Notes under the pieces: model-generated
What the model saw: only the letters and a program-made list of their open reading frames with translations
Told to the model about the DNA's origin: nothing
Databases searched by the model: none
Assembly (NCBI GenBank): GCA_017480565.1
Contig: JAFVAL010000055.1
Location: forward strand, 1-63,530
From: Lachnospiraceae bacterium
GTDB taxonomy: Bacteria; Bacillota; Clostridia; Lachnospirales; Lachnospiraceae
Length of the DNA stretch: 63,530 nt
Direction of reading: 5' to 3'
Program-made: the position numbers and the translations under genes
In this document: piece after piece, positions 1 through 25,300 of the stretch
Layout: each line of letters opens with the position of its first letter
Numbering within the stretch: position 1 is the stretch's first letter

Positions 1-290
1 GAATCGCAAACGGCTGCGGGGTCTTTGAGACAGTCGGCACTTAGCGTGGCGGGCCTTCTCGCGGGTTGCGTCTAAAAGAAAAGCCTGGAGGTCTAACAGA
101 TCATTACAGATGGCTTGTTCGAGTTTACTCGATTACAAGCCATCTGTTGATCTGTTCGTTGCGAAAGCAACGCTCCAGGCTTTGTTAAATTAAATCCAAA
201 CGCGGGAGTCACGGCCGCTTACGTGTCCGCTACTGGCGAAACGAAGCTGCGAAGCGTCCCCGCACACGGAAAGATTCGACGAGCCCAGTT
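1..290 (+). ncRNA. Highly structured non-coding RNA, class not assigned
   Basis: No reading frame explains this stretch, but it folds strongly on paper. A 10-bp perfect stem (81-90 with 173-182) encloses a long hairpin (95-103 with 148-156, 106-118 with 135-147, 119-123 with 128-132, loop 124-127) and a second hairpin, 158-162 with 167-171, capped by a GAAA tetraloop. This gives a three-way junction. A 7-bp long-range helix (15-21 with 258-264) could close the whole element, and 11-16 can pair with 31-36. I saw none of the signatures I know for tmRNA, RNase P, SRP RNA, 6S, T-box or cobalamin riboswitch. The clostridial raiA-motif RNA is the first family I would test, but I cannot confirm it. 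The strand is inferred from the GNRA loop and the downstream gene direction. The RNA may begin before the window. Confidence 0.6.
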
Positions 291-371
291 CAAGAATGTT
301 CATATCACTAGATCATAGGTATGGCTATATGAATTCCATGATAAATTTTCTGAAAACTATCTAATTTGCTC

Positions 372-400
372 TTGACTTCTGATTGACGTAGGGGTATATT
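372..400 (+). promoter_or_regulatory. SigA-type promoter of the hrcA operon
   Basis: TTGACT (372-377) and TATATT (395-400) are separated by 17 bases. Transcription would start at about 407, immediately before the CIRCE operator, so HrcA bound there would block initiation or escape. The space from about 300 to 370 upstream holds no gene; I see only an AT-rich tract with a TTCATAT/ATATGAA inverted repeat. Confidence 0.8.
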
Positions 401-483: not shown

Positions 484-1512
484 ATGGAACTTTCCGAGAG
501 ACAACTGAAGATTCTTCAGGCGGTCATTCGCAATTACTTAGAGACCGGTGAGCCGGTGGGTTCTCGAACCATTTCGAAGTACACGGATTTGTCGCTTTCT
601 TCAGCTACCATCCGCAATGAGATGGCGGATCTGGAAGAGATGGGCTACATCATTCAGCCGCACACCTCCGCGGGACGAATCCCGACGGATAAGGCGTATC
701 GACTTTATGTGGATACGATGATGAGTGCGAAGACGGAGGAGATTGAGAGCCTGAGAGAGACCCTGATGGATAAGGCCGGGCGGCTCGATCATTTGCTCAA
801 AGAGGCTGCGAAGCTTCTGGCAGATAACACGAACTACACGAGCCTTGTGACGACGCCTTCTTACCGAGGAAGACGCGTGAAGTTCTTACAGCTGACGGAT
901 GTCGATGAGCTGCATGTGCTTTTGGTGATGGTTCTGGAAGGCAACCTGGTCCGCAACAAGATGTTGATTTCTGATGTGCCGGTTGACAAGGAAGTGGTCT
1001 TAAAGCTGAACATCCTGTTGAATACATTTTTGCAGAATTTACAGCTTTCCGAGATCAATTTGCAAATGGTTGCGCAGATGAAGGAGCAGGCGGTTGGCTT
1101 TGAGTCGATCGTCGAGCAGATTCTCGGTGCGCTTTCGCAGGAACTGAGGGATGCGGATGCCGTGGAAGTTTATACGAGCGGTACAACAAACATCTTAAGG
1201 TACCCAGAGCTTTCTGATAAGGAGAAGGCAGCAGAGCTGTTGACCACATTTGAGGAAAAGACAGAGCTGACGCAGGTGATGAATAACCGGCTGGAGTCGG
1301 AAGATGGAACCAGAGGCATTCAGGTTTACATCGGGAACGAGAACAGTATGGAGGCCATGAAGGATTGTTCGGTGGTCACTGCGACGTACCAGATGGGTGA
1401 TGGTGTGTTCGGTAAGATCGGTATTGTCGGGCCGAAGCGGATGGACTACGATAAGGTGGTTGGGACGCTGCAGAATCTGATGACAGAGCTCGACGCGATC
1501 TTTAAAAAATAG
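484..1512 (+). CDS. hrcA: Heat-inducible transcription repressor HrcA
   Basis: HrcA is the dimeric repressor that binds CIRCE and holds down hrcA-grpE-dnaK-dnaJ (and usually groESL) until heat stress titrates the chaperonin. The 342-residue length is normal. A winged helix-turn-helix fills about residues 1-75, with the family segment SATIRNEMADLEEMGYI at 40-56 and the SAGRIPT turn at 62-68. The rest is the GAF-like and inserted dimerisation region. The ATG follows an AAAGGAGG ribosome-binding site (469-476) at good spacing. It is the first gene of the operon, directly below its own operator, so it is autoregulated. Confidence 0.98.
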   Translation: MELSERQLKILQAVIRNYLETGEPVGSRTISKYTDLSLSSATIRNEMADLEEMGYIIQPHTSAGRIPTDKAYRLYVDTMMSAKTEEIESLRETLMDKAGRLDHLLKEAAKLLADNTNYTSLVTTPSYRGRRVKFLQLTDVDELHVLLVMVLEGNLVRNKMLISDVPVDKEVVLKLNILLNTFLQNLQLSEINLQMVAQMKEQAVGFESIVEQILGALSQELRDADAVEVYTSGTTNILRYPELSDKEKAAELLTTFEEKTELTQVMNNRLESEDGTRGIQVYIGNENSMEAMKDCSVVTATYQMGDGVFGKIGIVGPKRMDYDKVVGTLQNLMTELDAIFKK

Positions 1513-22381: not shown

Positions 22382-25300
22382 ATGGTCAGACGTATTTATG
22401 TGGAAAAGAAACCGGAATTTCAGGTTGCTGCAGTTTCCTTAAAGGGGGAGCTTAAGGAGTATTTGAATCTGAAAGGTCTTGAAAATGTGCGGATTTTGAT
22501 CCGTTACGATATCGAAAATGTCAGCGATGAGACATATCTGTGCGCAAGAAATACCATTTTTTCCGAACCGCCGGTGGATGATCTGTATGAGGAGACATTT
22601 GCCCGCGGGAACGAGGATATTATCTTTTCCGTGGAATATCTGCCGGGACAGTTTGACCAGAGGGCAGATTCTGCCGAGCAGTGTGTCAAGCTGTTAAATA
22701 GCAAAGAGCATCCGGTCATTCATTCTGCAACGACTTATGTGATCTCGGGTTCTGTTAACGAAGACGATCTTGCGCGGATTAAAGCGTATTGCATCAATCC
22801 TGTGGACTCGAGAGAGACCGATGAGACGAAGCCTGAGACTTTGGTAGATGTCTATCCGGAGGCACCGGATGTAGCGGTTTTGGAAGGCTTCTGTGAGATG
22901 GATGATGCTTCTTTTGAGGCATTATATGCGTCTCTTGGCCTGGCCATGACGTTGAAAGATTTTGAACATATCAGAACTTATTATAGAGAAGAAGAGTACC
23001 GAAACCCGACCATGACCGAGATCCGCGTTCTGGACACCTATTGGTCGGATCATTGCAGACACACGACCTTTTTAACAGAGCTTAAGGATGTTGTGTTTGA
23101 GGACGGCGCGATGCGTGCTCCAATTGAGGGTGCGTATGAGCAGTACCTTGAGGATCGCAAGTCTCTCTATGCAGGCAGAAAGGATAAGTTCGTCTCCCTC
23201 ATGGACGTGGCGACCCTTGGCATGAAAAAGCTGCGTGCGGAAGGCAAACTTGACGATCTGGAAGAGTCCGATGAGATTAATGCGTGCTCAATCGTAGTCC
23301 CTGTGGAGATCGACGGTGTGACCGAAGAGTGGCTTGTCTTCTTTAAAAATGAGACGCATAATCATCCGACCGAGATCGAACCCTTCGGTGGTGCGGCGAC
23401 TTGTCTTGGCGGTGCGATCCGCGACCCGCTCTCCGGCAGAGGTTATGTCTACCAGGCAATGCGTATTACCGGCGCAGCGGATCCGACCAGACCGCTTTCG
23501 GAGACTTTGCACGGAAAGCTGCCACAGAGAAAGATTACGACCGGAGCAGCTTCCGGCTACAGTTCTTACGGAAACCAGATCGGTCTTGCTACCGGTTATG
23601 TGCACGAAATCTATCATCCGAATTATGTCGCAAAGCGCATGGAAATCGGTGCCGTGATGGGTGCTGCGCCACGCAAAAATGTGATCCGTGAGACTTCAGA
23701 TCCCGGCGACCAGATCATTTTACTTGGCGGAAGAACCGGTCGTGATGGCTGCGGCGGTGCGACGGGTGCTTCCAAGGCACATACCGACACCTCGATCGAT
23801 ACCTGCGGTGCGGAAGTCCAGAAGGGAAATGCACCGACAGAGCGTAAGATTCAGCGTTTGTTCCGTCGTCCTGAAGTGACGAAACTGATTAAGAAGTGCA
23901 ACGATTTCGGCGCGGGCGGTGTCTCCGTTGCGATCGGAGAACTGGCGGATGGTTTACACATTTTCCTGGACCGCGTGCCGAAAAAGTATGCTGGACTCGA
24001 CGGAACAGAGCTTGCAATCTCTGAGTCGCAGGAGAGAATGGCGATCGTAGTCGCTCCTAAAGATGTGGATGCGATGCTTGCCTACGCGGCAGAAGAGAAC
24101 TTAGAAGCGATTGTGGCCGCGGAAGTCAAGGAAGATCCTCGTCTTGTCATGTTCTGGCGGGGAAAGACGATTGTTGACTTATCGCGTGCATTTTTAGATA
24201 CCAACGGTGCACATCAGGAGACCAATGTGCGCGTCGAGATGCCTGAGGAGAAGGACTACTTTGCCAGCAAGCCGGTTGCTGATGTGAAGGGAAAATGGCT
24301 TGAGACCCTTTCAGATCTGAATGTCTGCTCACAAAAAGGCCTTGTGGAGATGTTTGACTCCTCGATCGGTGCTGCTACGGTGACCATGCCTTACGGCGGA
24401 AAGAAGCAGCTTACCCCGATCCAGACGATGACGGCGAAGCTCCCGGTGCTCTCCGGCAAATGTGATACGGTGACGCAGATGAGCTATGGATTTGATCCTT
24501 ATTTATCCAGCTGGAGTCCGTTCCACGGTGCTTCTTATGCGGTACTTTCGTCTGTGGCAAAGATCGTCGCGGCAGGCGGTGATTATAAGAAGATCCGCCT
24601 GACCTTCCAGGAATATTTCAAACGCATGACAGAGGATCCTGCGCGTTGGGGACAGCCTTTGTCCGCGCTTTTGGGTGCTTACGAGGCGCAGGTGCGTCTT
24701 GGCCTTCCGGCCATCGGTGGAAAGGACTCGATGTCCGGCAGTTTCAATGAAATCAATGTTCCGCCGACCTTAGTTTCTTTCGCAGTGAATGTAGGAAATC
24801 TCTGTGAAGTTGTAACGGATGAGTTTAAGACCCCTGGCGATCTGCTTGTCAAGTTCCCGGTTTATCGCGATGCGTATCAGCTTCCGGATTACGAGAAGAT
24901 GATGAAGCTTTATGACGAGATTCATGCACTTACCCAAGCGGGTGTGATTAAGACTGCTTATGCGCTTGGTTACGGCGGTATCTGTGAAGCAGTCAGTACG
25001 ATGGGCTTCGGCAATGCGCTTGGGGCAGATCTGGATCCGAGTGCGGTTTCTGCAGGAGACTTATTTGTTCCGGAATATGGTGCGATCCTCGCGTGCATTT
25101 CCAAAGAGGATCTTAAGAAGGTTACGGCAGAGCATGTGGTAATCGGTCAGGTCAATGCTTCCGGCGACTTCACCTATGGGGATGTCAAGATCGACGCGAA
25201 AGAAGCACTGGATACCTGGAAAAGACCGCTTGAAAAGGTGTTCCCGACGGACTCTGGTGTCGAGCAAAAAGAGATTCCTTCGCGTATTTATAGAGAAAAG

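Follow-up and report, generated by a model that had tools for sequence, protein, structure and literature searches.

A dispersed, structured and probably mobile non-coding repeat of Lachnospiraceae, with one copy upstream of hrcA

The hrcA locus and the element upstream of it

The window (the whole stretch of 63,530 nucleotides that was analyzed) begins at a contig start (G000:C49:1) and carries near this end a heat-shock operon, in which the Pfam match to HrcA is followed by matches to GrpE, HSP70 and DnaJ (Table 1). Positions 1-483 contain no open reading frame (ORF) of 60 amino acids or more. A reading made from the DNA letters alone (hereafter the sequence-only reading) had described a highly structured, unassigned RNA in an open-frame-free stretch at 5-264. 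All stems named there, including the closing helix, are present in the sequence and are contained in the minimum free energy (MFE) fold of positions 1-300. The claim that so much pairing is unlikely by chance also held: the MFE was -128.7 kcal/mol vs. a mean of -93.96 (sd 5.58) for shuffled sequences (z = -6.23), and 0 of 200 shuffles were as stable. The plus strand, on which the RNA had been drawn, is the better-folding one.

Table 1. Features of the element and of the hrcA locus (window coordinates).
Feature	Position	Strand	Remarks
Repeat copy (type A)	1..300	+	5' end cut by contig start; 3' end approximate
P1 closing helix, 5' strand TGCGGGG	15..21	+	pairs with 258-264; 5/5 P1 pairs change on both sides (family alignment)
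Core hairpin P2, 5' strand CAGU CGG CAC UUA GCG	31..46	+	UUA internal loop 41-43
Apical insert	60..206	+	between direct CGCGGG copies at 60-65 and 201-206
Three-way junction of the sequence-only reading	81..182	+	stem 81-90/173-182 = AAGCCTGGAG/CTCCAGGCTT; long hairpin ~95-156; GAAA hairpin 158-171
P2, 3' strand CGC UUAC GUG U CCG CU ACUG	216..235	+	UUAC loop 219-222; bulges U226 and CU 230-231
GNRA hairpin GCU-GCGA-AGC	246..255	+	GNRA in 59/63 relatives
P1 closing helix, 3' strand CCCCGCA	258..264	+	MFE fold and family alignment
hrcA promoter-like site TTGACT-17-TATATT	372..400	+	outside element; matching sequence upstream of hrcA in G001
Inverted repeat TTAGCACTC-N9-GAGTGCTAA	415..441	+	taken to be the CIRCE operator; outside element; also in G001
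hrcA	484..1512	+	Pfam HrcA, E 1.2e-63; first gene of heat-shock operon (hrcA, grpE, dnaK, dnaJ)

The junction conserved in the family is the outer one, formed by P1, by P2 with its UUR/UUAY internal loop and CU bulge, and by the GNRA hairpin. The junction at 81-182 sits in a variable, species-specific insert that this conserved junction encloses; its sequence differs among the subfamilies of the source genome, the pairing being largely kept. In the 17 copies of that genome with an insert for which both ends were readable (the 5' repeat being sought by a loose pattern; six further copies were unmeasurable), the distance between the CGCGG(G)-like repeats is 138-143, and copy L038 (1194-1407) has no insert and a single CGCGGG. 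Judged from these sequences, the apical insert may have arisen by nested insertion, the CGCGGG repeats being a 6-bp duplication; a repeat-to-repeat deletion in L038 would look identical.

Regarding the operon, the own-genus comparison consisted of one other genome, G001, whose HrcA is 91% identical; its hrcA region is significantly similar to the window from position 371 onward, and a short stretch at 341-356 matches weakly. In G001 a sequence that on visual inspection resembles the terminator of another gene precedes the hrcA promoter and CIRCE. The element was not detected in the hrcA loci of 27 other genomes, G001 included; G001 carries copies elsewhere in its genome. Because the element was not detected at hrcA of G001, significant similarity there starts at 371 and the promoter-like site lies at 372-400, the element is a neighbor, and not a regulator, of the heat-shock operon, and the link to this operon in the sequence-only reading is not supported, the element being a dispersed repeat. 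In the same material, G006 yielded three hrcA matches, equal in score and in identity, from two contigs (L275, L296, G006:C37), perhaps an assembly duplication or contamination.

Copies in the source genome and across the family

A search of the source genome with positions 1-300 yielded six further full or long copies (identity 95, 92, 82, 93, 80 and 72%), whereas searches with either end alone yielded 33 and 24 places at E <= 10, the weakest of which are chance matches. By their 3' core, 24 distinct copies were counted in the stretches fetched. An exact core pattern occurs 20 times in this genome (11 forward, 9 reverse) and not once in 396 other genomes of the family. The 5' strand of P2 is conserved in these copies, in [Lactobacillus] rogosae and in the consensus of 63 relatives, and the stem below the GNRA loop varies among the copies of the source genome in a paired way (GCU/AGC, ACC/GGU, GAC/GUC, GCC/GGC). 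Many of the other copies also lie at contig ends, as is usual for repeats in an assembly, and the window copy lacks an intact 5' end because the window begins there.

The ORFs adjoining the copies, taken from mechanical ORF lists without gene names, differ from copy to copy. In the source genome the 3' end of the element faces the stop codon of the neighboring gene in 18 of the 21 called cases (of 24 copies; p 0.0015), at least one case (L018) resting on a probably spurious ORF, and most copies are antisense to the gene beside their 3' end; among relatives the same orientation was found in 39 of 62 cases (p 0.056), a weak bias. One inverted pair (loci L007 and L018; G000:C17, ~24481-25241) adjoins TGTGGATAA-rich sequence, which we take to resemble a replication origin with DnaA boxes.

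An exact 19-mer of the element was found at three places in the genome_contigs collection (which may leave out the source genome), all in [Lactobacillus] rogosae ATCC 27753 (= G009), and in no viral contig. This strain is placed by NCBI in Lachnospira, family Lachnospiraceae, and because it is listed as belonging to the same family as the window, the window was assigned to Lachnospiraceae, a family abundant in the gut. A covariance model (R1) was built from seven copies of the source genome, the window copy among them, with the insert removed, and three L. rogosae copies. At E <= 0.01, R1 matched 76 of 397 genomes of the family, i.e., 67 of 334 genera, the source genome and L. rogosae included; six of these genomes have only a match with E above 0.001, the E-values are rough and at most nine candidates were scored per genome. 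In an order-level sample of 392 genomes (the number outside the family is not given), 20 had an R1 match at E <= 0.001, all of them in the same family. On negative material, R1 gave nothing at E <= 1 on the 27 hrcA loci and nothing at E <= 5 on 32 loci of Y1 transposases or reverse transcriptases (RT).

A second, independent model (R2), built from other genomes only, gave one match (E 0.7) on 49 negative-material loci. It matched both G001 copies and, in the source genome, five copies in four loci (L032, L007 twice, L038 and L039) at E <= 0.0011, with L008 at 0.088; at E <= 5 nothing was obtained for the window or for the other 11 of the 16 loci given besides it. With filters off, R2 scored 8.4 bits (E 0.054) on the 3' half of the window copy and 6.8 bits on 80-182, and we think that the long insert defeats R2 on the window. 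R1 reached 32.3 bits on the window with the 5' half misaligned. The window copy is nevertheless tied to the family, because its core can be read directly and because it shares 80% identity with an R2-matched copy (E 6.2e-8), the C17 copy in L007. Both models could serve to annotate the element in other genomes.

Conservation of the fold and of the strand

The L. rogosae copies, which were found by sequence alone, have the same core hairpin, with the stem CCGU/ACGG vs. CAGU/ACUG, and a further stem reads GCAGCC/GGCUGC in L077 vs. GAAACC/GGUUUC in L078, with one mismatch in L079; at the level of sequence, these differences are covariation that was collected blind to structure. A larger set comprised 63 compact copies from 50 genomes, taken from 140 rows of three overlapping cmsearch alignments and aligned by MAFFT without structure; copies of the source genome, duplicates and long-insert copies were left out and two L. 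rogosae seeds of R1 were included. RNAalifold predicted 25 pairs, and in 23 of these both partners vary. In the named structure the same is true of 26 of 27 pairs (392 cells vs. 132 in shuffles), the covariation score is 0.540 vs. 0.192 in shuffled alignments and 85.8% of the cells are paired vs. 27-45% when the structure is slid along the alignment, the copies having been picked with a structural model, which favors paired sequences. The covariation check proposed with the sequence-only reading was thus positive, for a three-way junction other than the one drawn there. The unpaired bases are nearly fixed (UUA or UUG in 61 of 63, a CU or UU bulge in 62 and a GNRA loop in 59), which is less easily explained by structural selection bias, although sequence, too, contributes to R1 scores.

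The plus strand is the more stable one in 16 of 16 copies of the source genome and in 59 of 63 relatives, compared with 24 of 30 for an FMN riboswitch control. In the global alignment with the RNAalifold structure, G-U outnumbers A-C by 105 to 42 on the plus strand, whereas the minus strand gives 53 to 67. We regard this test as suggestive only, because the FMN riboswitch control does not separate the strands (own strand, 20 to 8; opposite strand, 33 to 14). The strand bias fits an RNA or a folded single-stranded DNA of the plus strand and proves neither. A purely DNA-level palindrome had been suspected from a hand-set structure on A6 (51 G-U vs. 55 A-C) and was rejected; that count included five P2 pairs that slip register from sequence to sequence (33 of the 55 A-C and 14 of the 51 G-U).

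Signs of mobility, interpretation and comparison with known systems

Inverted pairs, with copies pointing apart within ~600 bases, occur at 10 of 24 context loci, which were picked partly for such pairs, and L106 is an eleventh case (~1.1 kb apart). Threefold tandem direct repeats were found in G149 and G424 (L121 4437-4900, L122 15-727), with periods of ~187 and ~300 bases. Near-identical units occur at different places: in the six pairwise comparisons of four G140 loci, 201-214 of 217 bases are identical, and in G339 an inverted pair of 387 bp (94% identity) is present at two places ~11 kb apart on one contig, with matching inverted ends. In G190, seven of eight copies are 194-197 bp long and bounded by a TTGCGAAACG-like and a CGTTTCGCAA-like end, both ends being exact in four; the left end of L207 is lost. 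Terminal inverted repeats are clear in G190 and G339, and TTGCGAAA-like ends on both sides were found in 5 of 65 cases vs. ~0.1 expected by chance. Inspection by eye for target-site duplications showed TA at one copy in G339 and none at the other, and none in G190. In the six copies of G017 (L215, L216, L217, L220, L226) the core is 98% identical, whereas the outer arms agree at only 53% from copy to copy; complementarity of the arms is 0.71-0.88 within a copy, compared with 0.53 on average and 0.71 at most for arms of different copies. The apical hairpins of these copies also differ and stay self-complementary, less so than the outer stems.

The search for a partner enzyme covered the families Y1_Tnp and RVT_1. 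Y1_Tnp was found in 16 of 34 carrier genomes, the other 18 being without a match, and in the source genome the only Y1 match is a fragment that stays below the cut-off of the family; this genome encodes one RVT_1 reverse transcriptase (405 aa, L090 1219-2436, G000:C31), whose locus contains no copy of the element, and no RVT_1 was found in G001 or G009. Among the 32 Y1-transposase or RT loci searched in the source, same-genus and carrier genomes (with ~1.5 kb flanks where the contig allowed), none contains a copy. A sub-threshold FuFi-1 match lies beside one element copy (L213 671-781, minus strand, 28.1 bits vs. a gathering threshold of 59.6).

With somewhat better than even confidence, we consider positions 1 to ~300 of the window to be a copy of a structured non-coding repeat that belongs to a new family and is probably mobile and non-autonomous. 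This reading builds on the multi-copy occurrence, on the 27 hrcA loci without the element, on the inverted pairs, tandem repeats and near-identical copies at different loci, on the orientation toward stop codons and on the conserved fold. A putative enzyme or other protein acting in trans would recognize the folded plus strand, as RNA or as single-stranded DNA, and this recognition would have spread the element. After insertion, mostly beside the 3' ends of genes in the source genome, a copy would have no role beyond that of a passive structured 3' region, and at the present locus it would have inserted ahead of the hrcA promoter and CIRCE, outside heat-shock control. Several points count against this reading: no partner enzyme was found in the Y1_Tnp and RVT_1 searches, no consistent target-site duplication was seen, TTGCGAAA-like ends on both sides are rare, the orientation bias is weak in relatives, and the conserved loop bases and the GNRA hairpin exceed the strict needs of a mobile element. 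It is also conceivable, but unlikely, that the element is a mobile structured RNA, the plus-strand transcript of which would fold into the conserved junction, be bound by a dedicated protein and be copied via an RNA or single-stranded intermediate, its outer and apical stems being rewritten at each copying with self-complementarity kept. Should a protein recognize the folded strand, its identification would add a new example of mobility guided by structure, or of RNA binding.

The same loop bases (UUR, UUAY and CU, nearly fixed) and the GNRA tetraloop, together with the more stable plus strand, the excess of G-U over A-C on that strand only and pairs covarying on one strand (in copies found with a structural model), are what would be expected of a duplicated functional RNA, either a small RNA or a protein-binding 3'-UTR element, the repeats then being genes or processing signals and not parasites. 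This is the main alternative, but a clearly less likely one: the plus strand of positions 1-300 has no promoter- or terminator-like site, a single terminator-like site was seen on the opposite strand (264-248, minus; 0.4 expected by chance in 1-500), the neighboring ORFs vary, most copies in the source genome are antisense to their 3' neighbor, and matches are limited to less than a fifth of the family genomes scanned (76 of 397). That the element is a single-stranded-DNA repeat of the REP type moved by a RAYT (Y1 tyrosine transposase) appears improbable. On the complementary strand GTAG precedes an imperfect palindrome in 35 of the 63 relatives, and the inverted pairs, like BIMEs, and the clusters recall such repeats; the tetranucleotide, however, differs in the other 28, and two of the tag bases are paired in P2, with changes compensated in all but one cell, whereas a REP tag (GTAG or CGTC) lies outside the stem. 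Moreover, no copy lies at the Y1 loci searched, the only Y1 fragment of the source genome is below cut-off, and the size and additional GNRA helix exceed the 20-40 bp given for REPs (PMC3733652). As tested, the REP/RAYT identity fails on two features, the tag outside the stem and the linked RAYT gene.

Two further readings carry very little weight. A cis-regulatory leader of the heat-shock operon would agree with the position ~184-483 bases upstream of hrcA and with the best-folding strand being that of hrcA, but is very improbable: because the element ends ~70 bases upstream of the promoter-like site, it lies outside a transcript starting from there, the search of hrcA loci in 27 other genomes yielded no copy, and the other copies of the source genome lie beside other genes, so that on synteny this was refuted as a general role. 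Membership in a known Rfam class (raiA-motif, 6S, tmRNA or a group II intron remnant) has nothing in its favor beyond the high degree of structure, and its probability is close to negligible. Rfam 15 gave no match at gathering thresholds in the whole window, and in positions 1-500 at E <= 10 only chance matches (mir-26, Afu_199), so that the element remains unassigned, as the sequence-only reading had it, and its tentative raiA-motif candidate was dropped. In 20 loci of relatives the single match at gathering thresholds was a lysine riboswitch away from the motif, and in six such loci at E <= 2 only MIR4208 overlapped it, on the minus strand (25.5 bits vs. a gathering threshold of 140, E 1.7); known classes were therefore rejected for want of a fitting family in the window or in the relatives' loci.

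No description of the element was found in the open-access full-text literature, and it is unnamed in the catalogues searched, i.e., Rfam 15 and that literature; PMC2864571 describes candidate RNAs without an Rfam number, some from Clostridia or the human gut. The element represents an unnamed, widespread structured addition to Lachnospiraceae and helps to explain assembly breaks such as the one at the start of the window.

Among known systems, the BOX, RUP and SPRITE repeats of Streptococcus pneumoniae are likewise dispersed, strongly folded and short, BOX being modular, and they are proposed to be non-autonomous mobile elements (PMC3049150); together with IS elements they are over-represented between convergent genes, which the authors of that paper regard as a sign of mobile elements. 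Unlike these repeats, the element has a single three-way-junction core with near-fixed loop bases and occurs in many genera. REP and BIME sequences share with it a palindrome, mismatches conserved in E. coli, inverted pairs, clusters and a proposed mobilization (PMC3733652, PMC8266576). E. coli REPs need GTAG and a stem bulge, the GTAG requirement and its strictness varying among REP groups (PMC8266576), whereas in the element GTAG is variable and partly base-paired, the length is ~100-300 nt with a second hairpin, and no linked Y1 gene was found. MITEs resemble it in the near-identical small units at different loci and, in some genomes, in the terminal inverted repeats; they differ in that the ends of the element vary between genomes while the internal fold is conserved, and that neither a consistent target duplication nor a parent transposon was found in the searches for Y1_Tnp and RVT_1. 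The preferred reading is that of a probably mobile element comparable to BOX, REP or MITE repeats, with the difference that its folded core is kept in a large part of the Lachnospiraceae.
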